This document shows, in pieces, positions 19,491-43,438 of a stretch of DNA of 64,000 nucleotides. The DNA is from Candidatus Dormiibacterota bacterium (GTDB lineage Bacteria; Acidobacteriota; Polarisedimenticolia; Gp22-AA2). The notes beneath the pieces were generated by a model that saw only the letters and a program-made list of their open reading frames with translations, was not told the DNA's origin and ran no database searches. The stretch spans positions 62,001 through 126,000 of the forward strand of contig DASQAT010000055.1 in NCBI GenBank assembly GCA_035635555.1, in the 5' to 3' direction. How positions within the stretch are numbered: position 1 is the first letter of the stretch; each line of letters begins with the position of its first letter. Position numbers and translations under genes: made by a program.

Positions 19491-20753
19491 ATGCGCGGAC
19501 TGTACTTCGACTGCTTCTCGGGGATCAGCGGGGACATGGTCCTCGGTGCCCTCGTGGATCTCGGAGTCGAGCCGGCCCACCTCCGCTCCCGGCTCAGAAA
19601 GCTGCGGGTCGGCGGGTACACCCTTTCGGCCTCGAGGGTGAACCGCTCCGGCCTCGCCGGGACGAAGGTGAACGTCGCGATCGCCCCGAAGCGCCAGGAG
19701 GAAAGACGTCTCAAGGACATCGCCCGGATCGTCGAAAGAAGCGGACTGTCGCGCGAGGTGCGCCGCCGGTCCATGGAGGCGTTCGAGACTCTCGTCGAAG
19801 CGGAGGCGCGCGTGCACCGCATCCAGAAAGACAAGGTGCACCTGCACGAGGTCGGGGCGATCGACGCCATCGTGGACGTCGTCGGGACGATGATCGGCAT
19901 GGAGACGCTCGGCTGGCCGCGCGTGGTCTGCTCGCCGCTGCACGTCGGGCGCGGCATGGTCACGATGGAGCACGGCACCTTCCCTGTCCCGGGTCCCGCG
20001 ACCGCGGAGATCCTCAAGGGGACGCCCACCTACGCCACCGAGGTCGAGGGGGAGCTGGTCACGCCGACCGGCGCCGCCCTGGCGACGACCCTGGCGGCCG
20101 AGTTCCGTCCCCTGCCGCCGATGCGCGTCGCCCGGATCGGTTACGGCGCGGGGACGAAGCAGTTCGACCACCACCCGAACCTGCTGCGCGCCTTCCTCGG
20201 CGACTTCCTGGACGAGCCGGTCCTGCGCGAGACGGTGCTCGTGCTCGAGACCACGATCGACGACATGAACCCGCAGCTCTACGGCCACCTGATGGAGCGC
20301 CTGTTCGCGGCCGGGGCCCTGGAGGTCTTCTACACGCCGATCCAGATGAAGAAGAGCCGGCCCGGCACGCTCGTGACCATCATCTGTCCCGAGCCGAAGC
20401 TCGACGCGGTCACGACGGTCGTCTTCCGCGAGACCACGACCATCGGCTTCCGTTACCTGCCGATGGGGCGGATCGAGCTGGCGCGACGCATCGAGACGGT
20501 CAAGACTCAGTTCGGCCCGGTCCGGATGAAGGTCTCCGTCTACAATGGCGAGGTCGTGCAGGCGACGCCGGAGTACGAGGACTGCCGCCAGGCGGCGCTC
20601 AAGGCGGGAGTCCCTCTCAAGGACGTGCAGCGGGTCGCCGCGGAGGCCTACCGCCCGCCGCGCGGGACGCCCGAAGCCATCGCGGCCTGGGCGCGTCAGC
20701 CGGTCCTGCCCGCGCGGACGCGCAAGGCGAAGCGACGTGGAGGACGAGGGTGA
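19491..20753 (+). CDS. larC: LarC, nickel insertion into the pincer cofactor of lactate racemase-type enzymes
   Basis: 420 residues in one uninterrupted frame, unlike some lactobacilli where a programmed frameshift joins LarC1 and LarC2. Landmarks are [17 protein letters not shown] at the start, [16 protein letters not shown] (metal-binding His/Glu), [13 protein letters not shown], and [19 protein letters not shown] opening the C-terminal domain. LarC inserts nickel, with CTP, into the pyridinium-dithiocarboxylate cofactor made by LarB and LarE. No larA, larB or larE is visible here, so they must be elsewhere or absent. Starts two bases after the sirtuin stop and overlaps the next gene by four bases. 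Confidence 0.92.
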
Positions 20754-23834: not shown

Positions 23835-24209
23835 ATGAGCGAAACGGGTGGAGGTCTCCTGGACGGAGCGCGCCCGGTCGCGATCGAGCCGCTGCCGCAG
23901 GAGGCGCACCTCGCCTTCCACCTGCTCGAGAGCGCCGGCATGCATCCCATCCTCGCCTACAAGGACGACAGCGGCGCGCCGCACCCGATCGACCCGGAGG
24001 AGCCGTTCACTCTCGGCAGCGGACTGATGCTTCCCGTGACGACGACGTTCGAGGTGTACGTCCCCGAATCGGAGGTCGCGGACGCCCAGCGCGTCCTGCA
24101 GGACGCCGGTCGCGCCGTGCCCGAAACGGACGAGCCGCTAGGCGCCGGGGCGGCCCAGGACGACGGTGGCGCACGATCCGCCGGTCCCGAGGGCGTTGAC
24201 CAGGACTGA
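23835..24209 (+). CDS. Small protein resembling DUF2007 (putative signal-transducing protein)
   Basis: 124 residues, soluble. A ferredoxin-like half resembles DUF2007: HLAFHLLESAGMHPILAYKD, then the C-terminal strand-helix FEVYVPESEVADAQRVLQDAG. These proteins are short and of unknown biochemical role. The tail after residue 100 is low-complexity Gly/Ala/Asp. It has its own promoter and appears leaderless. The 3' end overlaps, in convergent orientation, the last 72 bases of the degenerate ketosynthase gene. DUF assignment is by pattern only. Confidence 0.6.
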   Translation: MSETGGGLLDGARPVAIEPLPQEAHLAFHLLESAGMHPILAYKDDSGAPHPIDPEEPFTLGSGLMLPVTTTFEVYVPESEVADAQRVLQDAGRAVPETDEPLGAGAAQDDGGARSAGPEGVDQD

Positions 24210-25334
24210 GGGCAGCGGTTCCCGCCGGGCATTTCCGACCACGATATTGAGACCGAGCTCCGCGTCGGGCTGGACGAGCCCGGCGACCGGCGGGATGAAA
24301 CCCTGACGGACGGAACAGGCCGCGACCAGGAGTGCGCAGGACGAGGCGCTCCCCGACTCCCCCGTACCCCCCTTCACCGAAGTCACAGGGATCCGGCGCG
24401 CCGCCGGGCCGAGGGCCCGGAGGATCGCGCGCGTCTCGACGGCATCCAGGACCCGCGAGCCGTTGGCCCCCGCGACGACGCAGCCGATCTCCTCCGGCCC
24501 CAGCCGCGCCTGGGCCATCGCCGAGCCGATCGCCGCCGCGATCGCGGGTTCGGCGGGCCAGCGGTGGACCGGGCCCGGGGCGTGCGCCATCGACTCGCCG
24601 AGGATCTCGGCCCACGCCACGGCGCCGCGCCGTGCGGCCGCTTCGCGCGACTCCAGGACCACGAAGGAGGCTCCTTCTCCCGGGACGAAGCCGCGGCGCC
24701 CCCTGCCGAACGGCCCCGGAAAATCATCCGGGTCCCCTCGAAACAGGAGATGCAGCCGGTCCCAGGCCGCCTCGAACTCCGGCACGCGCTCGTCCGCGCC
24801 CCCCGCCAGGACGACGTCGCAGACACCGTCACGCACCAGGCCCGCGGCCGTCGCGACAGCCGCCAGGCCCGATGCCTCCATCTGACTGACGGTGAGGCTG
24901 GGGCCGCGCAGGCCCAGGAGGAGCGAGCACTGGCTCGCCGGAGCGTTCGGGACGGTGACCGGGAAGAGCAACGGGGAGACGCTTGCCGGCCCTTCCTCGA
25001 ACAACGTGGTCAGGAACGCGGTCAGCGACGCGACACCGGCGGTCATCGTGCCGGTCACCAGCCCCACCATTCCACCCGCCCCGGCGCGGAGCCCGGCCCG
25101 TTCCAGCGCCTCGAGGGCCGCGGTCGCGGCCAGACGCGAGCAGCGATCCAGCCGGCGCCAGACGTTGGGATGGAACGGACCCGATCCCGCCGTCTCCCGC
25201 ACGCGCGCGGCGCAGATCCGCCCGGACCGCTCGAGCACGGTCCTCCCCGCCACGACCCCCTCGACCAGGGCGTCGACCCCTGAGCCGAGCGGACCGATGG
25301 AGCCGCCGCCGGTGATCATCACCCGCCGGTTCAT
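24138..25334 (-). CDS. Degenerate beta-ketoacyl synthase (KS-beta / chain-length-factor-like)
   Basis: 398 residues with the thiolase fold of FabF-type synthases throughout (MITGGGSIGPLGSG, LAGGADERVPEFEAAWDRL, VETRAILRALG). All three catalytic residues are lost: the nucleophile Cys is Glu153 (VSQMEASG), the first His aligns with Gly289 (VVAGANGS) and the second His with Glu326 (VKGGTGESG). The Lys before the second His is kept (K321). This matches KS-beta or chain-length factors, which dimerise with an active ketosynthase and set product length. It ends the operon dehydratase, KS-alpha, arsenate-reductase-like, KS-beta, joined by ATGA overlaps. Confidence 0.85.
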   Translation of the reverse strand: MNRRVMITGGGSIGPLGSGVDALVEGVVAGRTVLERSGRICAARVRETAGSGPFHPNVWRRLDRCSRLAATAALEALERAGLRAGAGGMVGLVTGTMTAGVASLTAFLTTLFEEGPASVSPLLFPVTVPNAPASQCSLLLGLRGPSLTVSQMEASGLAAVATAAGLVRDGVCDVVLAGGADERVPEFEAAWDRLHLLFRGDPDDFPGPFGRGRRGFVPGEGASFVVLESREAAARRGAVAWAEILGESMAHAPGPVHRWPAEPAIAAAIGSAMAQARLGPEEIGCVVAGANGSRVLDAVETRAILRALGPAARRIPVTSVKGGTGESGSASSCALLVAACSVRQGFIPPVAGLVQPDAELGLNIVVGNARREPLPSVLVNALGTGGSCATVVLGRPGA

Positions 25335-25780
25335 GCCGGACGCTCCTCCTGCAGAAGTCCGTCGATCAGCGCGCTGATCTGCGTCTCCAGCCGATCGCGC
25401 ACCTGCCGGAACGCCTCGCGCACCGCGTCCGGCCCCCCCTCCGCGAAGGACGGATCGTAGGTCGACCAGTGCTCGTGGTGGCCTTCCAGGAGCGGAACCG
25501 GGCATTCCTGCACCGCAGAGTCGCACAGGGTGACCACGCAGTCGAACGCTCCCGGCACGTCGTCGATCCCCTTGGAGTACTGCCGGCTGATGTCGATGCC
25601 GTGCTCCTCCATCACCGCGACGGCGTGACCGACGACGAACCCGGCCGGGAAGGTCCCGGCGCTCTTCGCCTCGATGCGCCCCTTCCCGAGGTAATTCGCG
25701 AGTCCTTCCGCCATCTGGCTGCGGGCCGCGTTGCCGGTGCACACGAACAGGACGCGGATCGGCTTCGACCTCTTCTTCAT
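25331..25780 (-). CDS. arsC: Thioredoxin-type arsenate reductase-like / low-molecular-weight phosphatase-fold protein
   Basis: 149 residues. The P-loop VLFVCTGNAARSQMAEG gives the CX5R motif with Cys14. Cys86 and Cys93 (TLCDSAVQECP) keep the seven-residue spacing of the redox cysteines of thioredoxin-coupled ArsC, and HEHWSTYDPSFAEG is the matching C-terminal segment. Classic ArsC reduces arsenate to arsenite in the cytoplasm. Here it sits between two ketosynthase genes, overlapping both by four bases, with no arsenite pump or ArsR nearby. It may be an ordinary arsC caught in the operon, or a phosphatase/redox enzyme used by the lipid pathway. Confidence 0.85.
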   Translation of the reverse strand: MKKRSKPIRVLFVCTGNAARSQMAEGLANYLGKGRIEAKSAGTFPAGFVVGHAVAVMEEHGIDISRQYSKGIDDVPGAFDCVVTLCDSAVQECPVPLLEGHHEHWSTYDPSFAEGGPDAVREAFRQVRDRLETQISALIDGLLQEERPA

Positions 25781-26988
25781 GCGTCGTGCCTCTTCAGGAC
25801 CAGCGTGCCGTTGTTCCCGCCGAAGGCCGTCGAGTTCGACAGGACGACTCTCAACCGCGCCTCGCGGGCACGCGCGGGGACGCAGTCGAGGTCGCAGTCC
25901 GGCCCGGTCTCCCTGAGACCGGTGGTCGGCGGGATGAGTCCGTGGAAGAGCGACATCAGGGAGGCGAACGCCTCGATCCCACCCGCGGCGCCCAGGCAAT
26001 GCCCCACCGCCCCCTTGATCGACACGACCGGAATGCGCAGGGCGCGTTCACCGAACATCGTCTTCAGGGCGCGCGTCTCGGCCGCGTCGTTCTGCTCGGT
26101 GCCGGTGCCATGAGCGTTGACGTGATCGACGTCGTCGGCCGTCAGATTGGAGGAGGCGAGAGCCGCCCGCATCGATCGGACGAGGCCCGCTCCATTGGGG
26201 TCGGGGGCCGTGGCGTGATGCGCGTCCGACGACATGCCGTACCCCGCGATCTCCCCGTAGATACGCGCCCCGCGCCGGCGTGCCGCCTCGAGAGGCTCGA
26301 GGACCAGCAGGACGGCGCACTCCCCCAGGGACATCCCCTGGCGCTCCCGGTCGAACGGACGGCACGGCTCCGGGTCGACCAGCCGGAGTGAGTTGAAGCC
26401 GGAATAGGTCGTGCGCGACAGCGTCTCGACGCCCCCCGCCAGCACCATGTCCTGGGCGCCGCGGGCCACGAGCGAGGCCCCCAGCCCGACGGCGATCGTC
26501 GAGGAGGAGCAGGCGTTCATGATCGTCTGGACCCGTCCTGCGAGACCGAGCCGCGCCGCGATGAGATCCGCCGTCGTCGTCATGAAGAACCCGAGGGCCG
26601 ATGACGGCCGCGGGAGGCGCCCCCGGAGCCTGGCCTCGAGATAATTTTCCCCCTGCAGGAGCCCGGTGCCGCCGCCCCCGAGGATCAGGCCGGTCCCGGT
26701 CCCCCCGACGCGTGCGGGGTCGAGACCGGCGTCGGCGAGGGCCTGCCGCGCGGCCTCGACGCCGAGCCTGTCGCCGCGGGACAGGCGCGCCCGTTCCTTC
26801 CTCGTGAAATCCCCGTTCCAGCCTGTCGGGTTGATCTGCGCCGCGGTGTGCGTGCGGTCCTTCGAAGCGTCGAACAGCGTGAGCGGCCCGATCCCACAGC
26901 GCCCGGCGACGAGCCCCCGCCAGGTCTCGGCCGCCGATTCCCCCAGGGCCGAGATGACGCCGGCCCCGGTCACGGCGACCCGGCTCAT
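25777..26988 (-). CDS. Beta-ketoacyl-ACP synthase II-like (KS-alpha)
   Basis: 403 residues. The active site is complete: Cys160 in IMNACSSST, His293 in VNAHGTGT and His330 in SIKGAVGHCLGAAG. The GFGG-like C-terminal loop is present as STAFGGNNG. It condenses acyl-ACP with malonyl-ACP. Pairing with a downstream degenerate synthase resembles KS-alpha/KS-beta pairs of type II polyketide, aryl-polyene and related lipid systems more than housekeeping FabF, which normally stands beside acpP and fabG. Start and stop overlap its neighbours by four bases each. Confidence 0.92.
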   Translation of the reverse strand: MSRVAVTGAGVISALGESAAETWRGLVAGRCGIGPLTLFDASKDRTHTAAQINPTGWNGDFTRKERARLSRGDRLGVEAARQALADAGLDPARVGGTGTGLILGGGGTGLLQGENYLEARLRGRLPRPSSALGFFMTTTADLIAARLGLAGRVQTIMNACSSSTIAVGLGASLVARGAQDMVLAGGVETLSRTTYSGFNSLRLVDPEPCRPFDRERQGMSLGECAVLLVLEPLEAARRRGARIYGEIAGYGMSSDAHHATAPDPNGAGLVRSMRAALASSNLTADDVDHVNAHGTGTEQNDAAETRALKTMFGERALRIPVVSIKGAVGHCLGAAGGIEAFASLMSLFHGLIPPTTGLRETGPDCDLDCVPARAREARLRVVLSNSTAFGGNNGTLVLKRHDA

Positions 26989-27428
26989 GCAGGCTTCCCC
27001 AGGGCGATCGTGAACTCCCCTTCGGCGACGACCGCCCCGCCCGGGGGGGAGCCGGCGAGCTCGGCGACGCTGCGCACACGGATCATGTTGCCCAGGATCC
27101 CGGTGACCGAGGCGGTGATCAGAAGGCGATCGCCGGGCCCCACCCGCCGCAGAAGACGCCCCCCGTCGATCCCGACGATCATCCCCGCGCCGCGCGGTGT
27201 CTCGGAGGCGTGCGCATGGTCCTCGCCCTGTGTTTCCGCCAGAGGGATGGCCGCCTGCGCCATCGCCTCCAGCAGAAGAGAGAAGGGGTATCCTCCCCGC
27301 GGGTCGTCCCGCACCACCTCGTCCGTGGTGACGGCCTTGATGGCCGTGCTGATCCCGTGTTCCAGCTCCAGGACCACGTCGATCATCCGGAATGGGTGCG
27401 AGTGCGGCGGAACGGTCGCGTCGCTCAC
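26985..27428 (-). CDS. Hotdog-fold 3-hydroxyacyl-ACP dehydratase-like protein (FabZ-related)
   Basis: 147 residues from GTG 27428. PPHSHPFRMIDVVLELEHG matches the FabZ N-terminal strand and YPFSLLLEAMAQAAIPLA the central helix with its Glu; VGPGDRLLITASV follows. The GHFPGXPXXPG segment that carries the catalytic His in FabZ is replaced by RDDPRGG, so the His is missing. Either another residue acts, or the protein binds acyl-ACP without dehydrating it. GGGAG precedes the start. First gene of the leftward ketosynthase operon, read from a promoter at 27485-27457. Confidence 0.78.
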   Translation of the reverse strand: MSDATVPPHSHPFRMIDVVLELEHGISTAIKAVTTDEVVRDDPRGGYPFSLLLEAMAQAAIPLAETQGEDHAHASETPRGAGMIVGIDGGRLLRRVGPGDRLLITASVTGILGNMIRVRSVAELAGSPPGGAVVAEGEFTIALGKPA

Positions 27429-27456
27429 GTGCGGGTCTCCCGCGGACGGGACAGGC

Positions 27457-27508
27457 AGTTTAGACGACGGCTCCCGTCGTTGCAAGCGTCGCTCGTCTCT
27501 GGTATAAG
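27457..27508. promoter_or_regulatory. Divergent promoter pair sharing one palindromic -35 box
   Basis: TTGCAA at 27480-27485 is its own reverse complement. Rightward it is followed by 17 bp and TATAAG (27503-27508), 10 bases before the ACP start. Leftward it is followed by 17 bp and TAAACT (27462-27457), serving the dehydratase-ketosynthase operon. Both promoters therefore use the same six bases and cannot be occupied together. Confidence 0.7.
27464..27480. promoter_or_regulatory. Inverted repeat, candidate operator in the leftward spacer
   Basis: ACGACGG (27464-27470), three bases, then CCGTCGT (27474-27480): a perfect 7-bp inverted repeat filling the spacer of the leftward promoter and touching the shared -35. 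A protein bound here would block the ketosynthase operon and probably affect the ACP operon. Confidence 0.5.
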
Positions 27509-27518
27509 GACGGCCTCC

Positions 27519-27791
27519 ATGCCCGGCAACAATCATGTGCTCCACAGCGAATTGAAGCGCTTCATCGTGCGCCGGCTCCGCCTGGAGCAGGTCGACCCCG
27601 ATTCCATCCAGGACGACGCCCTCCTCGTGGGCGGCGGTCTCGACCTCGACTCGATCGATCTTCTGGAGCTGGTGGTCGGGCTCGAGAAGGAGTACGGGCT
27701 GAAGATCGCGGACGTGGCGGAGGGCCGGCGCATCCTGACGTCGGTCGACAGCCTCGCCCGATTCGTCGCCGGGCAGCGTGGCGACGCCTGA
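27519..27791 (+). CDS. Acyl carrier protein
   Basis: 90 residues. Helix I (HSELKRFIVRRLRLEQVD), then GGGLDLDSIDLLELVVGLEKEYG with Ser45 of the DSI motif as the phosphopantetheine attachment site, then a short third helix and ILTSVDSLARFV. It carries growing acyl chains for the adjacent ketosynthases. It is more basic at the N terminus than housekeeping AcpP and lacks the usual fabD/fabG/fabF context, so it is probably dedicated to this locus. ATG 27519 follows the -10 box by 10 bases with no clear SD. The stop lies within the next gene. Confidence 0.9.
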   Translation: MPGNNHVLHSELKRFIVRRLRLEQVDPDSIQDDALLVGGGLDLDSIDLLELVVGLEKEYGLKIADVAEGRRILTSVDSLARFVAGQRGDA

Positions 27792-28515
27792 GGCCGGCGG
27801 CCGCGGCGCGGCCGCCTATGTCGGAGTGATCCCGGCTCTGAACGCCTCGTCGACCATCGGACCGGTGGTGGCGGGCACTCTCCGCCACCTGCCGCGCGTC
27901 CTGGTGGTGGACGACGGATCGACCGACGACACCTCGGACCGCGCGCGCGCCGCGGGGGCCGAGGTCCTCCGTCACCCCGACAACCTCGGCAAGGGGGCGG
28001 CGCTGTGCACGGCGTTCGAGCACGTGCTCGCCGGGCGCCCGGTCGACGCCGTCATCACCCTCGACGCCGACGGCCAGCACGATCCGGAGGATATCCCCCT
28101 CTTCCTGGAATTGCACCGGAGCGCGCGTCCCTCCCTGATCGTGGGCTCGCGCGCCCGCGACTTCGCGGCCATGTGGGGACCGCGCCGGGCCATGAACCGG
28201 TTCTCGTCGGCCTCGCTGCGCATCTTCTCCGGAGTCGATCTGCCCGACTCGCAGAGCGGCTTCCGGCTGTACGATGCCGCCTTTCTCGGACGGCTTCGCC
28301 TCGTCGGGCGCCGCTACGAGGCCGAGATGGAGGCGCTGATGCGCGCCGCGGAGTGGCGGATGAAGGTCACCTCGGTGCCGATCCACCTGCGCGTCGTCGA
28401 CGGACGGGCCACGAGCCACTACCGGCCGCTGCGCGACACCGTCCGCATCGTCGACACCGTCCTGCGCCAGTGGCTGAGACGCCGCTTCGCGCGCTCCCGC
28501 CCGGACGAGCCGTGA
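27778..28515 (+). CDS. Family 2 glycosyltransferase, dolichol-phosphate-mannose-synthase-like
   Basis: 245 residues. The GT-A motifs are VIPALNASSTIGPVV, VLVVDDGSTDDTSD, LGKGAALCTAFEHVL and ITLDADGQHDPEDIP with the DXD. QSGFRLYDAAFL is typical of DPM-type GT2 enzymes, which glycosylate lipid-linked acceptors at the cytoplasmic face. There is no C-terminal membrane segment. The GTG start overlaps the ACP gene by 14 bases and its stop overlaps the radical SAM start by four. In aryl-polyene and similar lipid loci a GT2 enzyme modifies the lipid head group; the same role is plausible here. Confidence 0.88.
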   Translation: MATPEAGGRGAAAYVGVIPALNASSTIGPVVAGTLRHLPRVLVVDDGSTDDTSDRARAAGAEVLRHPDNLGKGAALCTAFEHVLAGRPVDAVITLDADGQHDPEDIPLFLELHRSARPSLIVGSRARDFAAMWGPRRAMNRFSSASLRIFSGVDLPDSQSGFRLYDAAFLGRLRLVGRRYEAEMEALMRAAEWRMKVTSVPIHLRVVDGRATSHYRPLRDTVRIVDTVLRQWLRRRFARSRPDEP

Positions 28516-29873
28516 CCGGGTCGCGCAAGATCCTGCTGATCTCCGCCTCGCACTACGAGCCTCGCGGCGGCGTGGCGCGCGTCGAGCGCTACTGGACCTC
28601 CGGGCTCACCCTCGTCCACCTCGAGGCGCTGACGCCGCGCGATTTCGTCTGCGAGCTGGTGGACGACTTCAGGCGCGAGCCGCCCCTGGAGACCGACGCC
28701 GAGCTGGTCGGCATCACGGCGATGGGGCTGCAGATCGGCCGGGCGTACGATCTGGCGGACTACTACCGCGCGCGCGGCCTGCCGGTCGTCATGGGGGGGG
28801 CGTGGGTCTCGCTCAACCCGGAGCAGGCGCTGGAACATTGCGACGTGGTGTTGAAGGGGGAGGCCGAGTACGCCTGGCCCGAGCTGCTGGCCGATTTCCA
28901 GCGCGGCGTATTCCGCCAGCGCGTCTACGAAGGGAGCCGGCAGCACGACCTGCGCGGGCTCCCCGAGGCGGACCTCGACCACCTGCCGCTCTGGCGCCCC
29001 GAGCTGATGCGCGAAAAGGTGTACCGCGACTACTACTTCCAGTTCCCTCTGTACGTCACGCGCGGCTGTCCCTTCCGCTGCGAGTACTGCTGCGTCACCC
29101 GGTTCCACGAGGCGACGTACCGCAAGCGGCCGATCGGCGAGGTGATGCGCGACGTCGACGCCATCCGCTCCAGAGGGTCCCGCAACATCCTGTTCATGGA
29201 CGACAACCCGGTCGCCGACCGGCGTTACGCGAAGGAGCTGTTCGGTGCTTTGGCCCCGAAAGGGATGCGCTGGTGCAGCCAGTGCACGATCCAGATCGCC
29301 GAGGACGAGGAGCTCCTCGATCTCGCCGCCAAGAGCGGCTGTTTTCTTCTCTCGATCGGCTTCGAAACGATCAAGCAGTCGAACCTCGACGGAATCAACA
29401 AGCCGTGGGCCCGCGCCCGCGAGTACGCGCGCCTGATCCGCCTGCTACGTCACCGCGGCATCCAGATCGTCGCCCTCATCATGATCGGCCTCGACGACGA
29501 CGATCCCGCCGATTTCGACCGCACCCTCGAGTTCCTGATCCGCCACAAGGTGCCGCTGGCGAAGTTCCACCTGCCGATCCCGTATCCCGGGACGCCGTTC
29601 TACGACCGGATGGAGAAGGAGGGGCGGATCCTGACGAAGGACTGGAGCCGCTACCACTACGGCAGCGCCGTCATCCGGCCGAAGCGGATGACGCCCGAGA
29701 TGGCGGAGCAGAAGTTCTGGGCGACCTACCACGACTTCTTCAGCATGCGCTCGATCCTGCGCCGCTTCTTCCCGCCCGCGCCGCGCAATCTCAAGATCCA
29801 GATGCACTACCTGACGGCGAACCTGATCTTCAGGAAGATGCAGCAGGCCGGGAAGCACCCCTACCTTTACTAG
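28512..29873 (+). CDS. B12-binding-type radical SAM enzyme
   Basis: 453 residues. The N-terminal half (residues about 5-130) has the Rossmann-like cobalamin-binding pattern (ITAMGLQIGRAYDLADYY, VVMGGAWVSLNPEQAL, VLKGEAEYAWPEL) but no DXHXXG His. The radical SAM domain binds its [4Fe-4S] cluster through Cys186, Cys190 and Cys193 (RGCPFRCEYCC). Relatives methylate unactivated carbons or modify lipids such as hopanoids. As part of the ACP operon it probably acts on the lipid or chain made here. The GTG start overlaps the preceding stop. The C-terminal 80 residues are basic and may contact membrane or substrate. Confidence 0.9.
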   Translation: MTGSRKILLISASHYEPRGGVARVERYWTSGLTLVHLEALTPRDFVCELVDDFRREPPLETDAELVGITAMGLQIGRAYDLADYYRARGLPVVMGGAWVSLNPEQALEHCDVVLKGEAEYAWPELLADFQRGVFRQRVYEGSRQHDLRGLPEADLDHLPLWRPELMREKVYRDYYFQFPLYVTRGCPFRCEYCCVTRFHEATYRKRPIGEVMRDVDAIRSRGSRNILFMDDNPVADRRYAKELFGALAPKGMRWCSQCTIQIAEDEELLDLAAKSGCFLLSIGFETIKQSNLDGINKPWARAREYARLIRLLRHRGIQIVALIMIGLDDDDPADFDRTLEFLIRHKVPLAKFHLPIPYPGTPFYDRMEKEGRILTKDWSRYHYGSAVIRPKRMTPEMAEQKFWATYHDFFSMRSILRRFFPPAPRNLKIQMHYLTANLIFRKMQQAGKHPYLY

Positions 29874-29880
29874 CGCAGGC

Positions 29881-30858
29881 TCAATCGAGGGCTTCGAGAG
29901 GCGCCGGCGCCGTGACGTCGCGCTCCAGGCTGCGGCGCGTCAGGGTAAGGACGGAGCGCTGCTTGATCTCGTTGAGGCAGGCGAGGATGGCGGGAACACC
30001 GAGGACGGTCGCGCCCGGCAGGAAAGCGGCGGCCGCGAGGTAGTTGATAGGGCGCATCGAGGCGCGCGTCTCCGGCGCGAGAAGGCCGGCGTAGTAGTGT
30101 CCGATTGCCCGGTAGATGTGCGACAGCAGACGCGGGAAGCCGATGGATGACGCGACGTAACGGCACTCTCCGCGACTCACGCTCGCGAGCCACTCGGCCG
30201 CCGTCCCGCCCGGCGCCAGCGTGTACGAAGAAGCGACGTGGTCCAGGACGTGCGCGTCGCTCCCGCCGACCGCCGTCTTGCGCAGGCCGAGCGCCAGGGC
30301 GAAGCGCAGCATCGCCTCGGCCACCTCGACGTGCCCCGCCGGCATCGTGCTGTTGGCGACTTCGATGTGGTCGAACAGCCCCAGGATCTCCTCCACGTAG
30401 GCGCGCGGCCGCTTCTGGAAGCGGTACGACCAGAACGGATGGTTCAGGACGAACAGCAGCCGGCGGCGACGCAGCCAGGCGACCAGGTCGTGGACGTCGC
30501 CGCGCAGGCGCTGCACCTCGCGGTGCGCCGTCTCGTTGAGGCCGAAGACGTTGACGTGCAGGCGCTGGCCGGTGTCGGGAAAGCGCGTCTCCACCTCCTC
30601 GCCGACGATGATCTCCGCCGCCCGGTCGGGCCGATCCTCCAAAAGGCTGAGGGCTCCTTCGATCGAATCGTGATCGGTGATGGCGACGTAGTCCATGCCC
30701 GCCGCCTTGGCTCTGTCGAACACGTCGGCCGGGTGCGAGCAGGAGTCGCGGGCCCGCAGGACGCGCGCGTGGCTCCAGGAGGAGTAACGGGTGTGCAGGT
30801 GCAGGTCGCAACGCCTGAGCGTCGGCGCGGGAGGCGTGTCGGAGGAGGCGTCGCTCAC
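29881..30858 (-). CDS. PHP-domain phosphoesterase-like protein
   Basis: 325 residues from GTG 30858. The PHP metal motifs are RCDLHLHTRYS (HXH), AITDHDSIEGAL, VGEEVETRF, VLNHPFW and GGSDAHVLDHV. PHP proteins hydrolyse phosphoesters such as histidinol phosphate or nucleotides. The C-terminal 70 residues (LAAAAFLPGATVLGVPAILACL) include a hydrophobic stretch that could anchor it to the membrane. The start is supported by TATCAT six bases upstream, giving a leaderless message. It is convergent with the radical SAM gene and divergent from the AMP-ligase gene. Substrate unknown. Confidence 0.85.
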   Translation of the reverse strand: MSDASSDTPPAPTLRRCDLHLHTRYSSWSHARVLRARDSCSHPADVFDRAKAAGMDYVAITDHDSIEGALSLLEDRPDRAAEIIVGEEVETRFPDTGQRLHVNVFGLNETAHREVQRLRGDVHDLVAWLRRRRLLFVLNHPFWSYRFQKRPRAYVEEILGLFDHIEVANSTMPAGHVEVAEAMLRFALALGLRKTAVGGSDAHVLDHVASSYTLAPGGTAAEWLASVSRGECRYVASSIGFPRLLSHIYRAIGHYYAGLLAPETRASMRPINYLAAAAFLPGATVLGVPAILACLNEIKQRSVLTLTRRSLERDVTAPAPLEALD

Positions 30859-30864
30859 GGCCGG

Positions 30865-30894
30865 ATGATACCCTCCCCCGTCGCGGCACGGCAA
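30865..30894 (-). promoter_or_regulatory. Promoter of the PHP gene
   Basis: Reading leftward, TTGCCG (30894-30889), an 18-bp spacer and TATCAT (30870-30865), six bases before GTG 30858. The spacing implies a leaderless transcript and supports that start over an upstream ATG at 30897. Confidence 0.55.
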
Positions 30895-30925
30895 CATCCC
30901 GTGCCGGAAAATGCCGCCGTGCCGC
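30883..30925. promoter_or_regulatory. Inverted repeat between divergent PHP and acyl-AMP ligase genes
   Basis: GCGGCACGGC (30883-30892) and GCCGTGCCGC (30916-30925) are perfect inverted repeats; a further CCGTGCC lies at 30899-30905. The left arm overlaps the PHP -35, and the right arm abuts the TATAAT of the ligase gene, so a bound dimer could control both. Confidence 0.5.
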
Positions 30926-30931
30926 TATAAT
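30926..30931 (+). promoter_or_regulatory. -10 box of the acyl-AMP ligase gene
   Basis: A perfect TATAAT, seven bases before ATG 30939, with no SD and no clear -35. An earlier in-frame ATG (30930) overlaps the box and cannot be the start if this promoter is used. Confidence 0.55.
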
Positions 30932-30938
30932 GCGCCGC

Positions 30939-32516
30939 ATGTCCGGCCCCGCGACGAGGGCACTGCACGACAGGCTCCTGGCCAGCCTCGCCTCCTCCCC
31001 GAAGAGGGAGGTGGCCCGTTTCCTGCCGGGCGGGCGGTCTCTCGACCTGGACACGTTCGAACGACGCATCCTGGGGGCCGAGCGCAGGCTCGTGCGCGTC
31101 GGCACGCCCTCGGGGCGGCCCACGGCGGTCCCCGACATCGGTCAGCTCGTCCTCCTGTCCTCCCGCAACATCGAGCCGTATCTGGTGGCGATCGCCACGC
31201 TGTGGAAGCGCGGCTTCGTGCCGATCCTGGCCGACGCCGACCTGGCGCGTGCCGAGATCGCGGACCTCGTGAGGACGTTCCGACCGGCCTTCTGCATTCT
31301 CGATCGACGGGTCGACCCGGAGGGAGGGGACACCGAGGACCTGGGGGACTCGCTCACCGGCCTGCACGCCTTCATCCCGGCGCGGCGGGGAGCGACCCGG
31401 CCGGTCTCCGGCCTTCTCGCCAACGGGACCGTCCTGCACGGCGACGCTGCGGTCGTCCGTCTGACCTCCGGGAGCACCGGACGGCCGCGCGGGATCCTGG
31501 CGACCGCCGGGCAGCTTCTCGCCGACGCGCGCCACATCACCTCGGCCGTCGGGATCAGGCCCGCCGACACGATCGTGTGCGCCATCCCGCTCGGGCATGC
31601 GTACGGCTTCGGGCACGTCCTGATGTCTCTCGTGCTTCAGGGTTCGCGTCCGATCCTGCTGGAGCAGCCGCTGCCGGCGCTGCTTCTGGAAGCGCTCTCC
31701 GGTCCCGGTCCCCTCGTCCTCACCGGCACGCCGTACCTGTTCAGCCTGCTCCTCCAGGCTGCGGGGAGGAAGAAGCTCAAGGGGCTGCGTCTGTGCCTGT
31801 CGGCGGGAGCGCCCCTGCCGGCCGACCTGTCGCGCGCCTGCAAGGACCGCCTCGGCCTGCCGATCAGGACCTTCTACGGCGCCAGCGAGTGCGGCGGCGT
31901 CTCGTACGACCGATCGCGCGACGGGATTCTCCCGGACGGCTGCGTCGGCACGCTCCTCCCCGGCGTGAACGTCACCGTGCGCGCCGAGCGCGGCGGGGAG
32001 GAAGGGGCCGGACGCCTCTGCGTCGAGAGCGACGTGGTGGCCCTCGGTTACGTTCCGGAAGGAAGTCCCGAGCTTTCGGCGGGGCGCTTCGTCACGGGGG
32101 ACCTCGGTCGCATCGACGCGGAGGGGCGTCTGCACCTCCTGGGTCGCGCCGACCGGATGATCAACGTGGGGGGCAGGAAGGTGAACCCGGTCGAGATCGA
32201 GGCGGTCCTGCGCGAGGTCCCGGGCGTGCGCCAGGTCGTCGTGTTCGGCGCGCCCGACCGTCATCGCGGCCAGATCGTCTGCGCCTGTCTCGTCGCGGCC
32301 CGCGGCGTGACGCGCGAGTGCCTCCTCATGGCCTGCGCCCCGCGACTCGCCCAGTTCAAGCTGCCGCGGCGCATCGAGTTCGTGGAGCGGATCCCGGTGA
32401 GCCCCCGCGGCAAGACCGACCGGAAGAGTCTCCTCGGCCTGGTGGCCCGTCCGCCGGACGCCCCGGCCCGGCGCCCTCAGTCACCGCGCTTCACCGCCTC
32501 CCCCCACACTTCATAG
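30939..32516 (+). CDS. Acyl-AMP ligase / AMP-dependent synthetase
   Basis: 525 residues of the adenylate-forming superfamily. Motifs in order: RLTSGSTGRPRG (phosphate-binding loop), FYGASECGG (A5), GRFVTGDLGRIDAEGRLHLL with the ribose-binding Asp, RADRMINVGGRKVNPVEIE (hinge), and PVSPRGKTDRKSL with the catalytic Lys. It activates a carboxylic or aromatic acid as an acyl-adenylate and would load it onto CoA or the ACP encoded at 27.5 kb, giving a starter unit. The 3' end overlaps the convergent acyltransferase gene by 40 bases. Confidence 0.9.
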   Translation: MSGPATRALHDRLLASLASSPKREVARFLPGGRSLDLDTFERRILGAERRLVRVGTPSGRPTAVPDIGQLVLLSSRNIEPYLVAIATLWKRGFVPILADADLARAEIADLVRTFRPAFCILDRRVDPEGGDTEDLGDSLTGLHAFIPARRGATRPVSGLLANGTVLHGDAAVVRLTSGSTGRPRGILATAGQLLADARHITSAVGIRPADTIVCAIPLGHAYGFGHVLMSLVLQGSRPILLEQPLPALLLEALSGPGPLVLTGTPYLFSLLLQAAGRKKLKGLRLCLSAGAPLPADLSRACKDRLGLPIRTFYGASECGGVSYDRSRDGILPDGCVGTLLPGVNVTVRAERGGEEGAGRLCVESDVVALGYVPEGSPELSAGRFVTGDLGRIDAEGRLHLLGRADRMINVGGRKVNPVEIEAVLREVPGVRQVVVFGAPDRHRGQIVCACLVAARGVTRECLLMACAPRLAQFKLPRRIEFVERIPVSPRGKTDRKSLLGLVARPPDAPARRPQSPRFTASPHTS

Positions 32517-33421
32517 AAGTTGAACCACTGCGTCGGGTAGTCGGTGACGAACCGCTCCACGATGCGCGCGAACGAGTCGACCGCGGCCCGCACCCCCTCC
32601 GCCCCCGACCCGACCCGCAGAGGGCCGTCCACGACGATGCGGTAGCGGGAGTGCCCCCGGATCGGCACGCAGACGGCGAGGATCGGCGCCCCGCTCGCCT
32701 GCGCCAGCGCGAACGGTCCCGACGGGAGATCGACGTCGGCTCCGAACAGACCGGCGCGCTCGCTGAGCGGCCCGAACGTCCGGTCCCCCTGGATCGCCAC
32801 GATCTCCCCGCGTCTGAGGGCCAGGAGAAGATCGAGCCCGTTCCAGGCCGACTCCCCCGCGGGCACGACGCGCACGCCGGCGCGCCGCCGCGCCTCCTCC
32901 TCGAACGGCGCCCCCCCGGAGTCCTCCGGGCGCAGGACGACGCTGACGGGACGGCCCAGGCTCGCGAGGTGCAGGAGCCCCATCTCCCAGTTTCCCAGGT
33001 GCAGCGTCAGCACGATGAGCCCTCTCCCCTCGCGCAGGAGGGCTTCGATCAGCCGTCGTGCCTCGTCCCCTCCCTCGACCCGGCGCCGCAGCGACTCGTC
33101 CGGCAGTCGTATCAGGTCGGTGTATCCCACCATGAACTTGCTGAAGTTGTAGAACAGGCCGAAGGCCAGCGCGCGCGACGCGAGCCCCGAGCGGCGAGTG
33201 GCCCGCTCCAGGTTGTGCCGGGCGGCGCGCCTCTCGTCCGGCATGGCGAGAAAGCAGATCGCCGTCGTGGCGAGGTGGATCGGCGGCCGCAGGAGGCGCG
33301 GCACTTTCGGGACGATGGCGTGGATCAGACGCCAGGAGAGTCTGCGGTTCCACCCGTGCGTGTACCAGCGCGCGGCCTGGCGCGGCCCCGGTCCGGCGCC
33401 GGACGGATCGTGACGGGGCAT
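32477..33421 (-). CDS. LpxL/HtrB-like lysophospholipid acyltransferase
   Basis: 314 residues. The HX4E active site is His141-Glu146 in LTLHLGNWEMG. GRPVSVVLRPED, then VAIQGDRTFG and the C-terminal FVTDYPTQWFNFYEVW are the standard LpxL/LpxM landmarks. An N-terminal hydrophobic segment (residues about 45-60) suggests inner-membrane attachment. Such enzymes transfer an acyl chain from ACP to a lipid. Here it may add the chain made by the ketosynthase pair to a glycosylated carrier, as in aryl-polyene loci. ATG 33421 lies seven bases after the ACT-protein stop. Confidence 0.88.
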   Translation of the reverse strand: MPRHDPSGAGPGPRQAARWYTHGWNRRLSWRLIHAIVPKVPRLLRPPIHLATTAICFLAMPDERRAARHNLERATRRSGLASRALAFGLFYNFSKFMVGYTDLIRLPDESLRRRVEGGDEARRLIEALLREGRGLIVLTLHLGNWEMGLLHLASLGRPVSVVLRPEDSGGAPFEEEARRRAGVRVVPAGESAWNGLDLLLALRRGEIVAIQGDRTFGPLSERAGLFGADVDLPSGPFALAQASGAPILAVCVPIRGHSRYRIVVDGPLRVGSGAEGVRAAVDSFARIVERFVTDYPTQWFNFYEVWGEAVKRGD

Positions 33422-33428
33422 CCGGTTC

Positions 33429-33965
33429 TCAGGCGGGCGCCAGCGTGATGTCGACGTGCAGCGACTCTTCGATCCCCTGGAGCTTCCGGCGCAGCGCCTC
33501 GAGATCGGCCGCGCGCGGCAGGTCGAAGCGCATCTCCATCTCATAGAGCGGCGTGCCGGTCGAGGCGGCCGGCTTCAGGTGCGACGTCAGCTCGAGGATG
33601 TTGCCGCCGGCGTCGGCGATGGCGCGCGCCGTGCGGGCGACGATCCCGGCCTTGTCCTCCCCCATCGTCTTCAGGCGGTACGGCCGCCCGGCGGCGGGGG
33701 ATGCCGGCCCGGCCCCCTCCTCGATCGGCTTGATGAAGATCGTCATCCCCTGCTCGTACTCCAGGTGCTTGCACGTCATGTGCAGCCGCTGCAGGAGATC
33801 GTCCCCCTGGCCGGAGAACAGGATCATGGTGGCGAACTCGCTTCCCAGGTTGATCATGCTGCTGGTCTCGAGGTTGCAGCCGAGATCGAACACCATCTCC
33901 GCCAGGTCGGCGACGATCCCGGGGCGATCCTTTCCGATGGCGGTCAGGATGAAGTGGCGTCTCAC
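33429..33965 (-). CDS. Tandem ACT-domain protein (GcvR-like regulator)
   Basis: 178 residues from GTG 33965. Two ACT domains: RRHFILTAIGKDRPGIVADL opens the first and YRLKTMGEDKAGIVARTA the second, each with the G-X-D-X-X-G-I-V signature. GcvR-type proteins sense an amino acid and regulate by protein contact, not DNA binding. A TACAAT box (33980-33975) stands nine bases before GTG, suggesting a leaderless message. It precedes the acyltransferase gene by seven bases, so the two are probably cotranscribed, though a functional tie to the lipid locus is unproven. Confidence 0.82.
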   Translation of the reverse strand: MRRHFILTAIGKDRPGIVADLAEMVFDLGCNLETSSMINLGSEFATMILFSGQGDDLLQRLHMTCKHLEYEQGMTIFIKPIEEGAGPASPAAGRPYRLKTMGEDKAGIVARTARAIADAGGNILELTSHLKPAASTGTPLYEMEMRFDLPRAADLEALRRKLQGIEESLHVDITLAPA

Positions 33966-33974
33966 GGTGGCGTG

Positions 33975-33980
33975 ATTGTA
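33975..33980 (-). promoter_or_regulatory. -10 box of the ACT-protein gene
   Basis: TACAAT reading leftward, nine bases before GTG 33965; no SD and no convincing -35. Confidence 0.4.
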
Positions 33981-34017
33981 GATCAGGACGGGCCGGCCCC
34001 GCATCCCCGAGGTGCGC

Positions 34018-35005: not shown

Positions 35006-38000
35006 ATGTCGACTGGATGGACGCGATCACGGCGAGGCCTTGGGCCAGACACCCGCAGGCGGCGTGGTTCGTTCCGGATCGTCCTGGCGCTGGGCTGTCT
35101 CCTGGCGGTCCCGGCGATCCTCGCCTTCGCGGTCGCGCAAGGAGGATCCCCCTCCCTGCCGGCGCGCGCCGGGATCCCGGCGCGGCAGGCGCACGATTCC
35201 GGACCGCACAAGCTGCTGATCCGCACCGACGATCGTCAGGCGCTCGAGCGTCTGGCCGCTCTCGGCGTCGTGCAGCGTCGGATCGATTACGGAACGCTCC
35301 AGCTCCTGGTGGTGGACGACCGGGCGATGCCGGCGCTCGGGGAGGCGGACCTGTCCGGCGCCGCGCTGCGCGACGATCTCGACCTCGTCGCGGTCAATCG
35401 CTGGCTCATCGATACGCGGGTGGGCGAGCCGAAGGACCTGCCGTGGGACCGCGTCGACACGCCGGGACGGTACGATCGTCAGCTCTATCTCGCGCAGCTG
35501 GTCGGTCCGGCCAAGGACGAGTGGCTCGCCGATCTCACGGCGCGCGGCGACGCCGCGATCGTGGCCTATCTCCCCAGCAACACCTACGCCCTGTTCGCGG
35601 CGCCGGCCGCCTGGCAGCGGTTGTCGCGGGAGGCGGGTCGACCCATGAGTCACGTCCAGTGGGCCGGCGCGTACCATCCCGCCTACCGGATCTCCGCCGA
35701 CTTGGAGGACGCCATCGCCCGGGACGACAAGGCGGTGGACGTGGTCGTGCAGATCGTCGAGCACGACGGCGCCGAGCGGACCGCCGCCGACCTCAAGGCG
35801 CAGGCGGCTCGGGTGCTGATGGACGACGTCAGCCTCGGCGGCATGCGCGACGTGCGCGTGCGGGTCCCCGCCCGGCTGGTCACGCGTCTGGCCGCGCAGC
35901 CCGACGTCTTCTGGATCGAGCCGTGCCTTCCGAAGATCAAGATGGACGAGCGCCAGGGGCAGATCATGGCCGGGAACCTCGACGGCACCGGCAGCCAGCC
36001 GTCCGCCCCGGGCTATCTGGCCTGGCTCGGAGGCAGAGGGTTCACGTCGAACTTCCCGTTCACCGTCGACGTGGCCGACGACGGCATCGACCGCGGCTCG
36101 ACCACCGACGTCCACCAGGACTTCAAGGACGCGGGCGGAACGTCGCGGGTCACCTACGTCCTGAACTACTCCGGCGACGCCTCGGGGGAGAGCGGCGCCG
36201 GTCACGGGAACATCAATGCCGCGATCGTCGGCGGCTACAACGACACCCAGGGGAACTCCGCCTTCGAGGACACGGCGGGCTATCAGTACGGTCTCGGGCT
36301 CGCGCCGTACGCGCGTCTCGGAGCCTCGAAGATCTTCAGCAACGCCGGCGCGTTCACCTCGACCGGCTACGCGACACTGATCGCGAACGCTTACAACAGC
36401 GGTGCCCGCATCAGCAGCAATTCCTGGGGTCTCACCGGCACGGGTGCGAACCAGTACACGACCGACTCCCGTTCCTACGACATCCTGGCGCGCGACGCCG
36501 TCGCGGGGAGCACCGGCAACCAGGAGATGACGATCGTCTTCGCCGCCGGCAACGCCGGCTCCGGAGCGAACACCGTATCGGCGCCCGGGACCGCGAAGAA
36601 CGTCCTCACCGCCGGGGCGTCCGAGAACTTCCGGCAGACCGGGACCGACGGCTGCGGCATCGCCAACACCGGGGCCGACAACGCGCGCGACATCATCAGC
36701 TTCAGCAGCCGAGGCCCGACCTCGGACGGACGGAAGAAACCCGACCTGATGGCCCCCGGAACGCACATCCAGGGTGCCGCGTCGAGGAGCGCGAACTACG
36801 ACGGGTCCGGAGTGTGCAACCAGTACTGGCCTGCGGGACAGACGCTCTACGCCTGGTCCTCCGGAACGTCCCATTCGACGCCAGGGATCGCCGGAGCCGC
36901 CGCGCTGGCCCGCCAGTGGTTCACCAACCAGGGATGGGGCAGCCCCTCCCCGGCGATGACCAAAGCGTTCCTGATGGCGACCCCGGCCTATATGACCGGT
37001 GTCGGGGCGAACGACACGCTCCCCTCGAACAACCAGGGGTACGGCCGGCTCGACCTCGGCCGCGCCTTCGACAACGCATCGAACATCCGGGTCGACGAGT
37101 CGCAGGTGTTCGGGTCGGCGGGGCAGACATACAACGTGACCGGCAACATCGCCAGCTCGTCGCTGCCGTTCCGGGTCATGCTGGCGTGGACCGACGCTCC
37201 CGGCGCCACCAGCGGCAACGCCTGGGTGAACGACCTCGATCTCGAGGTGACAATCAACGGGACCCTCTACCGGGGGAACGTCTTCTCGGGGTCGGGATCG
37301 ATCAGCGGCGGGACCGCCGACAACCGCGACAATACCGAAGCGGTGTTCCTCCCCGCCGGCACGACCGGGAGCTTCTCGATCACCGTGCGGGCCATCGGGA
37401 TCAACGGCGACGGCGTCCCCGGCAACGCCGACACGACCGACCAGGACTTCGCCCTGTTCGTCTACAACGGCACCCAGGCGGCCCCGACTCCCGACTTCAC
37501 GATCGGGGCGACACCCGCCTCGCAAACCGTCCCCCAGGGCGGCTCCACGAGCTACACCACGACCGTGACCAGCGTCAACGGCTTCAGCGCGGCGACGACG
37601 CTTTCCGTGAGCGGTTTTCCCTCCGGTGCGACCGGCTCCTTCTCGCCGAACCCGATCACGCCGCCGGCGAACGGCTCGACGAGCTCGACGCTCAGTGTGA
37701 CGACGGCGGGGACGACCCCTGCCGGGACCTACACGCTGACCATCACCGGGACGAGCGGGGCGCTGTCCCACTCCACGACCGTCTCCCTGAACGTGCAGGC
37801 GGCCGGGGGCGGGAACCAGGTCCTGACCTTCTCCACAACACCGAACCTGCCGATCCCGGACAACAGCGCCACCGGGGTCACCAGCACGATCTCGGTCGCC
37901 GGGTCCGAGACGATCACGAGCGTGAGCGTGTACGTGAACGTCACCCACACCTACCAGGGTGATCTCGAAGTGTCGCTCATCGCTCCCGACAACACGACGG

Positions 38001-38563
38001 TCCTGCTGCACAACCGCACGGGCGGCGGCACCGACAACATCGTGACGACCTACAACATCACCACACGGTCGAACCAATCCCTGACCGCGTTCAACGGGAA
38101 GAACACGTCCGGGGCCTGGACGCTGAAAGTGCGGGACCTCGCGGCGATCGATACGGGGACGCTCAACTCGTGGAAACTGGCGTTCAACGGCTACTCGACC
38201 GCCTCCCCCGGCCTGGCGATACCCGACAACAACACTACGGGTGTGACCAGCACGATCAACGTGGCGGCGACCGGTACGGTCGCCGACCTGCGCGTCCGGG
38301 TCAACATCACCCACACCTACCAGGGGGACCTGGAGGTGTCGCTCATCGGACCGGACAACACCGCAGTCCTGCTGCACAACCGCGCCGGCGGGAGCGCGGA
38401 CAACATCGTCACGGTCTATCCCGACCTGACGGCCCCGGCGCAGTCGCTCTCCGCCTTCAACGGCAAGGCGATCGCCGGCGCCTGGAAGCTGAAGGTCCGT
38501 GACCTGGCGGCGATCGACGTCGGGACGCTCAACTCGTGGGAGATCGACTTCCGGACGCCGTGA
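35006..38563 (+). CDS. Large secreted subtilisin-family (S8) protease with two C-terminal P domains
   Basis: 1185 residues. A basic N-terminal stretch and hydrophobic segment (residues about 23-45) give export; a propeptide-like region runs to about 320. The triad is Asp358 (VADDGIDRG), His400 (GAGHGNINAAI) and Ser622 (SSGTSHSTPG), with the oxyanion Asn in FAAGNAGSG. After residue 700 come a beta domain, an Ig-like domain (830-930) and two P/Homo B domains (about 945-1060 and 1068-1184). These are so alike, in DNA too, that they are a recent tandem duplication. GAGGAGGGGG precedes ATG 35006. It probably degrades external protein. Confidence 0.93.
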   Translation: MSTGWTRSRRGLGPDTRRRRGSFRIVLALGCLLAVPAILAFAVAQGGSPSLPARAGIPARQAHDSGPHKLLIRTDDRQALERLAALGVVQRRIDYGTLQLLVVDDRAMPALGEADLSGAALRDDLDLVAVNRWLIDTRVGEPKDLPWDRVDTPGRYDRQLYLAQLVGPAKDEWLADLTARGDAAIVAYLPSNTYALFAAPAAWQRLSREAGRPMSHVQWAGAYHPAYRISADLEDAIARDDKAVDVVVQIVEHDGAERTAADLKAQAARVLMDDVSLGGMRDVRVRVPARLVTRLAAQPDVFWIEPCLPKIKMDERQGQIMAGNLDGTGSQPSAPGYLAWLGGRGFTSNFPFTVDVADDGIDRGSTTDVHQDFKDAGGTSRVTYVLNYSGDASGESGAGHGNINAAIVGGYNDTQGNSAFEDTAGYQYGLGLAPYARLGASKIFSNAGAFTSTGYATLIANAYNSGARISSNSWGLTGTGANQYTTDSRSYDILARDAVAGSTGNQEMTIVFAAGNAGSGANTVSAPGTAKNVLTAGASENFRQTGTDGCGIANTGADNARDIISFSSRGPTSDGRKKPDLMAPGTHIQGAASRSANYDGSGVCNQYWPAGQTLYAWSSGTSHSTPGIAGAAALARQWFTNQGWGSPSPAMTKAFLMATPAYMTGVGANDTLPSNNQGYGRLDLGRAFDNASNIRVDESQVFGSAGQTYNVTGNIASSSLPFRVMLAWTDAPGATSGNAWVNDLDLEVTINGTLYRGNVFSGSGSISGGTADNRDNTEAVFLPAGTTGSFSITVRAIGINGDGVPGNADTTDQDFALFVYNGTQAAPTPDFTIGATPASQTVPQGGSTSYTTTVTSVNGFSAATTLSVSGFPSGATGSFSPNPITPPANGSTSSTLSVTTAGTTPAGTYTLTITGTSGALSHSTTVSLNVQAAGGGNQVLTFSTTPNLPIPDNSATGVTSTISVAGSETITSVSVYVNVTHTYQGDLEVSLIAPDNTTVLLHNRTGGGTDNIVTTYNITTRSNQSLTAFNGKNTSGAWTLKVRDLAAIDTGTLNSWKLAFNGYSTASPGLAIPDNNTTGVTSTINVAATGTVADLRVRVNITHTYQGDLEVSLIGPDNTAVLLHNRAGGSADNIVTVYPDLTAPAQSLSAFNGKAIAGAWKLKVRDLAAIDVGTLNSWEIDFRTP

Positions 38564-39803: not shown

Positions 39804-40066
39804 GGCATGAATTGAGCGATGTCGCTGTCCAAGAGGGAGGCCGCGTTCCAGAGCTTTCGCAGCTCCTGGAAGTTTTCCGGATTGAAACGCGAGCGGGAGA
39901 GGCGGATCTCCCAGACCGCCTCCACGCGGGCTCCATCCTTGCGGATCCTGGTCTCCGCCGCCCAGCCGTCCCCTTCGGCGGTCGTATCCGCCGAGAGGAG
40001 GAGCGGACACGGCATCAGAATGATGGCGAGGGCAAGTTCGACGAGTACGCGACGGGCGCCGAACAT
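39800..40066 (-). CDS. Small exported hypothetical protein
   Basis: 88 residues. A clear signal peptide (residues 1 to about 27, LALAIILMPCPLLLSA) is followed by a short domain, WEIRLSRSRFNPENFQEL, that loosely resembles the last strand and helix of DUF3857 regions in transglutaminase-like proteins. It might be a remnant of a larger gene, but the frame is intact. The stop overlaps the GTG of the serine hydrolase gene, and ATG 40066 is the only good start. The function is unknown. Confidence 0.6.
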   Translation of the reverse strand: MFGARRVLVELALAIILMPCPLLLSADTTAEGDGWAAETRIRKDGARVEAVWEIRLSRSRFNPENFQELRKLWNAASLLDSDIAQFMP

Positions 40067-43153: not shown

Positions 43154-43176
43154 CCGTTAAGTTCTTGCCTTCACGA

Positions 43177-43205: not shown

Positions 43206-43248
43206 GAGGGCGCTTTCGTTCCTTGACATTTCGCATCGTGGGCGATCG

Positions 43249-43412: not shown

Positions 43413-43438
43413 GATGCTTCGCCTCGAGGGAGGCTGCC

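Follow-up and report, generated by a model that had tools for sequence, protein, structure and literature searches.

Background

What is made by a ten-gene locus in which a ketosynthase pair is found together with a B12-type radical SAM enzyme and an arsenate-reductase-like protein? Few kinds of biosynthetic gene cluster are as widespread in bacteria as the aryl-polyene type. The locus lies in a 64,000-nucleotide stretch of DNA, referred to as the window (G000:C55:62001-126000), from an Acidobacteriota metagenome-assembled genome (MAG) of 4.28 Mb in 59 contigs. The original prediction for this DNA, made from its sequence, named ten proteins and proposed a membrane lipid or polyene carrying a radical-SAM modification, for example a methylation. 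The identity of the envelope anchor of aryl polyenes (APEs) was still unsettled in a 2021 genetic study (PMC8253772), and a radical SAM enzyme locked to the glycosyltransferase of an APE-type pathway would offer a handle on the chemistry of the sugar and anchor. The hosts of the locus are uncultured soil Acidobacteria, and searches of the open-access literature returned no account of an aryl-polyene locus with a radical SAM enzyme.

Organization of the locus

Profile matches and coordinates confirmed every one of the ten predicted proteins in its place. They are given below in window positions, with gene starts placed by hand, followed by an adjoining ACT-domain gene.

24138-25334, minus strand: KSβ, full-length degenerate ketosynthase partner (PF00109, E 1e-28; alignment, tree)
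25331-25780, minus strand: ArsC-like protein with the LMW-PTP/thioredoxin-coupled arsenate reductase fold (PF01451, E 5e-21; arsC_pI258, E 3e-30, under cut-off; PDB arsenate reductases)
25777-26988, minus strand: KSα, active-type ketosynthase (PF00109, E 2e-37; PF02801; motifs, tree)
26985-27428, minus strand: dehydratase (DH)-like hotdog protein, ApeP-type (NCBIfam FabZ, E 5e-14, under cut-off; alignment with ApeP, ApeI and FabZ; AF2 model)
27519-27791, plus strand: acyl carrier protein (ACP) with GLDLDSIDLL (PF00550; NF006617, 64 bits; aligns with ApeE)
27778-28515, plus strand: GT2 glycosyltransferase, polyprenyl-phosphate-sugar-synthase-like (PF00535, E 4e-20; PpgS/AglJ-like; ApeJ alignment)
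28512-29873, plus strand: radical SAM enzyme (rSAM) with a predicted N-terminal B12-binding domain (PF04055, Radical_SAM, E 3e-20; PF02310, partial, E 2e-8; CPFRCEYC)
29881-30897, minus strand: PHP-domain (CehA/McbA-like) metallohydrolase (PF02811; NF038032, 79.7 bits against a cut-off of 80)
30930-32516, plus strand: AMP-forming acyl/aryl ligase with a putative ApeH-like role (PF00501, E 3e-38)
32477-33427, minus strand: LpxL-like acyltransferase (PF03279, E 7e-23; tblastn match to the C-terminal half of ApeJ, 24%)
33429-34004, minus strand: ACT-domain protein, directly upstream of LpxL (PF13740/PF01842; also beside the site in G006)

The ten genes are flanked by tatD-DUF2007 on one side and ACT-DUF309 on the other. 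The ACT-domain gene is probably on the same transcript as the LpxL-like gene, its membership of the locus being uncertain. Starts and stops overlap by four bases at DH/KSα, KSα/ArsC, ArsC/KSβ and GT2/rSAM, which argues that DH-KSα-ArsC-KSβ and GT2-rSAM are real coupled operons. The DH gene appears to begin at a GTG with GGAG upstream, a position that is conserved in relatives. An open reading frame listed from 25742, in which KSβ would be a 534-aa fusion, was rejected; its N-terminal part is arsC read in another frame. Relative to the congener G001, pN/pS was 0.25-0.59 across all ten genes, being lowest for rSAM (0.25; housekeeping metG, 0.26) and highest for KSβ (0.59), and the genes are therefore taken to be coding and under purifying selection.

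A ketosynthase pair of the polyene type

A maximum likelihood tree of 43 rows, with FabF rows included and FabB absent, placed KSα in a clade that also contains E. coli ApeO and KSα proteins from many Acidobacterial clusters of the same class (support 99/97), leaving the FabF rows outside. KSβ and its degenerate counterparts from class-wide Acidobacterial polyene-type clusters grouped in a single clade (98/99). Neither ketosynthase grouped with FabF in this tree, a check that had been named with the original prediction, and a housekeeping FabF origin of both was ruled out. The predicted pairing of an active with a degenerate ketosynthase was borne out by motif alignment. KSα keeps the Cys, both His and the Lys, and its active site is intact in six genomes; in KSβ the active-site Cys and the second His are each replaced by Glu and the Lys is kept, a pattern conserved in relatives and shared by the majority of KSβ rows from the class-wide clusters.

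One gene, ArsC, separates KSα from KSβ. Among solved structures, KSα matches the ketosynthase of 6kxd (E 1e-69), which we take to be Iga11 of ishigamide biosynthesis. The locus shares a full-length degenerate partner with such highly reducing type II PKS pairs (Iga11-Iga12) but has no dedicated ketoreductase (KR), and its other partner genes and its organism differ. KSβ is 398 aa long with both thiolase halves present, compared with 240 aa for ApeC of CFT073; ApeC of aryl polyene clusters is a half-length protein (PMC8358021).

Common features with the APE clusters of E. coli CFT073 and Xenorhabdus are the ApeO-related KSα, a degenerate KS partner, an ApeE-like ACP, an AMP ligase, an ApeP-type DH without the His, and a GT2 and an LpxL-like protein that correspond to the two halves of ApeJ (toolkit and gene roles from PMC8253772). 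The locus differs in its full-length KSβ, in the additional B12-type rSAM, ArsC and PHP genes, and in being without KR (ApeQ), ApeI, ApeR, thioesterase and MMPL/LolA/LolB export genes.

Polyene-type clusters of the same Acidobacterial class (G024, G026, G006, G008 and others) have ACP-KSα-KSβ-GT2 or parts of it in that order, a divergent AMP ligase, LpxL and, in some, PHP. They differ from the locus in having no rSAM orthologue, and two carry a chorismatase. In G024, the cluster additionally encodes KR, MMPL, a methyltransferase, LpxL and a DH protein in which ApeI-like and ApeP-like halves seem to be fused.

Reductive steps and export

The protein predicted to be dehydratase-like has a FabZ fold in its model but is without the catalytic His of FabA/FabZ. 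An AF2 model (pLDDT 78) matched FabZ folds with a TM of about 0.7. In all seven family members the catalytic His is absent and the Glu is kept (LLLEAMAQ). This is the pattern of E. coli ApeP, and ApeI has the opposite one (His kept, Glu missing), from which it follows that only the ApeP-type half is kept at the locus.

No SDR or His-bearing hotdog protein, and hence no ApeQ-type KR or ApeI-type subunit, was found in the window between 23.8 and 35 kb. Likewise, ApeR, a thioesterase and the export genes MMPL and LolA/LolB were absent from the locus; MMPL is found in the clusters of relatives. The original prediction that the set has no ketoreductase or enoyl reductase was correct for the locus. 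With only an ApeP-type half and no KR, the DH partner and the KR must come from elsewhere, and a KR as well as a His-bearing FabZ are encoded in a separate PKS cluster on contig C26 of this genome.

This second, fuller type II PKS-like cluster (G000:C26:124.5-138.3 kb; L082:4575-18302) encodes two LolA-like proteins, an ASPIC/UnbV FG-GAP protein, TPR, DUF1702 and DUF1302 proteins, three ketosynthases (one degenerate), a short open reading frame in the ACP position, the FabZ and KR, and an ABC transporter with a MacB/FtsX permease. The UnbV/DUF1702 pairing is unusual next to an aryl-polyene-like KS set.

The missing KR, ApeI and export genes could indicate an aryl-polyene cluster that is degenerating and will eventually be lost, and the pN/pS of KSβ, the highest of the ten, its broken reading frame in the MAGs G003 and G004 and the damaged rSAM and GT2 genes of G005 would fit such an account. 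However, no ratio reaches 0.6 and that of rSAM is like that of metG, the KSα active site has been maintained, and the frame breaks, like the G005 deletion, may be assembly errors. Decay is thus very unlikely.

Starter and anchor

GT2 aligns with the N-terminal half of ApeJ, and the C-terminal half of ApeJ, or ApeD, is the counterpart of the LpxL-like acyltransferase. For ApeJ, a role in linking the polyene to a glycolipid anchor has been put forward (PMC8253772). Regarding the starter, FkbO/Hyg5-type chorismatase, the one 4-HBA source searched for, was found in no rSAM-carrying genome, so an aryl starter is hypothetical at the locus. Such a chorismatase lies beside KSα/KSβ in two clusters (G006:C196 and G008:C58), pointing to a hydroxybenzoate-type starter in these two. 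Among the host genome and its 11 nearest relatives, eight have rSAM without chorismatase, two have the reverse and two are without full rSAM or chorismatase; the two genes never occur together in this small sample of related genomes.

Conservation in relatives

The comparison genomes are fragmented draft assemblies, most or all of them MAGs. The complete set is syntenic in three members of the same genus (G001, G003 and G004). In G007, from the same family, it is split over two contigs and PHP was not seen. All but GT2 and most of rSAM is present in G005, where rSAM residues 3-55 are all that remains and the two genes are damaged together. In three genomes of a sister family (f2: G009, G010 and G011), only AMP ligase-ACP-GT2-rSAM was found together. 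Co-conservation, the other check named at the outset, was consequently found for the ten-gene set in the genus and less completely in one Acidobacteriota family, and at the order level was confined to the AMP ligase-ACP-GT2-rSAM linkage.

Within the family, gene order says little about function, because the flanks (metG, tatD and ACT) are syntenic too. Rearranged contexts are stronger functional evidence, and two families preserve the ACP-GT2-rSAM order although its genomic surroundings differ between them. The rSAM block of G009 and G011 lies beside formiminotransferase/GCS2-type genes, and that of G010 is split over two contigs. In G009 and G010, the KS pair lies at another position, accompanied by an LpxL-like gene and an AMP ligase, and the annotation of G009 places a halogenase-like FAD enzyme next to the pair; the KS pair and rSAM operon of the sister family thus occupy separate loci, each with its own AMP ligase. 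The G008 genome as a whole keeps AMP ligase-GT2 with no rSAM orthologue. In G006 (own family), the same site has DH-ArsC together with a halogenase-like FAD enzyme, ACP and AMP ligase and no KS pair, GT2 or rSAM, a full KS cluster with chorismatase being on another contig.

These arrangements raise the alternative that two pathways lie side by side, with DH-KSα-ArsC-KSβ making an acyl product, ACP-GT2-rSAM and the AMP ligase forming an independent glycolipid-tailoring unit, and their adjacency reflecting shared ancestry and general synteny. Besides the separate loci of the sister family, in which the rSAM operon has no KS genes, the retention of the KS half in G005, the G006 site and the synteny of the flanking genes are all compatible with this. 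In the host's own family (f1), however, the locus has a single ACP and a single AMP ligase, located with both halves. The contiguity of ACP-KSα-KSβ-GT2 in the class-wide clusters links GT2 and ACP to the KS pair. We regard two independent pathways as rather improbable, and a single pathway is preferred.

The radical SAM enzyme

The CxxxCxxC motif of rSAM reads CPFRCEYC, and its B12-binding match is partial and just over the cut-off. The best profile matches, BchE (95 bits against a cut-off of 481) and HpnJ (87.7 against 577.6), are far under their cut-offs, and therefore rSAM belongs to no named family. The ladderane-rSAM profile likewise gave a weak match far under its cut-off, and an AF2 model of rSAM (pLDDT 47) was too poor to use.

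B12-type radical SAM enzymes include non-methylating ones, such as BchE. According to the original prediction, a cobalamin radical SAM enzyme would C-methylate the polyene or acyl chain. The predicted B12-type N-terminal domain agrees with this, and known cobalamin radical SAM enzymes are mostly methylases (PMC13142503). Against it, the best, though weak, family matches BchE and HpnJ do not methylate, and rSAM is translationally coupled to GT2, not to the KS genes. Chain methylation is accordingly considered possible but unlikely.

The coupling of rSAM to GT2 recalls HpnI-HpnK-HpnJ, in which the radical SAM enzyme forms the cyclitol ether once a glycosyltransferase and a deacetylase have done their work (PMC12583986). 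In both cases a glycosyltransferase would precede a radical SAM enzyme acting on a membrane lipid; at the locus, however, no deacetylase or hopanoid genes were seen, and the HpnJ match is weak. The GT2/rSAM overlap points to the sugar as substrate at least as well as to the chain, and by this analogy a late tailoring step with GT2, possibly on the sugar, is ranked slightly above chain methylation.

The enzyme has a narrow distribution. A genome-wide scan of 84,980 species, based on the rSAM alignment and using the patterns FMDDNPV and MRWCSQC only, by which distant forms could be missed, returned four loci, all in Acidobacteria. The nearest named relatives found are 'Acidobacteria bacterium isolate gp22 AA3/AA4' plus two further MAGs of Acidobacteria, the named relatives being of group 22. 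Among 396 Acidobacteriota genomes searched, orthologues (at least 70%) were found in no family beyond the host's own and its sister family. The next-best homologues (about 40%, other Acidobacteriota) were rejected as representatives of the same system, with no sign of an ACP or AMP ligase nearby. Elsewhere in the Acidobacteriota, at L155 (G269:C5) and L156 (G267:C2), divergent genes for B12-type radical SAM enzymes stand four in a row, about 30-36% identical to rSAM.

The ArsC-like and PHP-domain proteins

C14, R20, C86, C93 and D109 of the ArsC-like protein are invariant in six genomes. The CX5R loop, the CX6C pair and the Asp are shared with thioredoxin-coupled arsenate reductases (pI258, B. 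subtilis, 8p5n); unlike those enzymes, this protein is encoded inside a PKS operon, and its score against NCBIfam arsC_pI258 (105 bits against 174) is under the equivalog cut-off. Neither ACR3 nor ArsB was found in any genome with the full locus (ArsP, ArsJ and ArsK were outside the search), and a role for ArsC in a resistance operon was rejected on this basis. Why a PKS operon should include an arsenate-reductase-like protein when known arsenic exporters are missing is a testable question.

A genuine arsenate reductase could serve a pathway that builds an arsenic-containing polyketide lipid, with rSAM forming the As-C bond. The invariant catalytic residues, the position of arsC between KSα and KSβ and the exporter result would accord with this, the last within the limits of an ACR3 and ArsB search. 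On the other side, ArsC stays with DH in G006, at a site without GT2 and rSAM, and does not accompany rSAM in the sister family; a convincing ArsM match was found in the host genome and none in G001, G003, G004, G005 or G007. Little speaks for an arsenolipid, which we consider extremely improbable. Since ArsC remains beside DH in G006, a link with acyl processing seems more likely for it than one with rSAM. PHP homologues occur in some related clusters, and it is proposed that ArsC and PHP provide accessory reductase and hydrolase functions.

Proposed pathway

We hypothesize, with a probability of roughly 0.6, that the locus is a reduced, family-specific aryl-polyene-like (highly reducing type II PKS) lipid locus in which rSAM acts late with GT2. 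The AMP ligase would load an aryl or acyl starter onto the ACP, and KSα with its degenerate partner would extend it with malonyl units, as in the family to which the pair belongs. For β-keto processing, a KR and a His-bearing dehydratase may be borrowed from elsewhere in the genome, with the local DH as the ApeP-like half-site. The LpxL-like enzyme and GT2 would then couple the chain to a glycolipid anchor, the role proposed for ApeJ/ApeD, after which the GT2-coupled rSAM might remodel the sugar added by GT2, as HpnJ does after HpnI/HpnK, or alkylate or rearrange the chain.

The absence of KR, ApeI, ApeR, thioesterase, MMPL and LolA, the lack of an FkbO/Hyg5-type chorismatase in rSAM-carrying genomes, the full-length KSβ, the split loci of the sister family and the position of rSAM outside named families count against this reading. 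The original proposal of a membrane lipid or polyene is upheld as far as a polyene/lipid-type type II PKS locus is concerned (KSα with ApeO, degenerate KSβ, APE toolkit genes), and as a whole it is partly supported. Because a GT2-linked rSAM and an ArsC-like protein are added to a stripped-down APE relative, the product is probably an unusual membrane-anchored molecule that is not yet isolated.

Neighboring genes

Just beyond the locus, an S8/P-domain protease is encoded at 35006-38563. G003 is the only relative in which PHP and rSAM are separated by an inserted S8 protease gene, its 1,395-aa product having carboxypeptidase-regulatory and CBM domains (L073:3961-8148). On the other side, a LarC-type nickel insertion protein (19491-20753) is followed by a short open reading frame and MetG; this arrangement is syntenic in relatives and has no evident link to the locus. 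The GC content of the window falls to 0.57-0.60 at 40001-44000, compared with about 0.70 around it, and this region contains a 973-aa open reading frame whose product has a type IV pilin-like N-methylation motif and an fn3 domain, a TSP3-repeat protein and then a TonB-dependent receptor.
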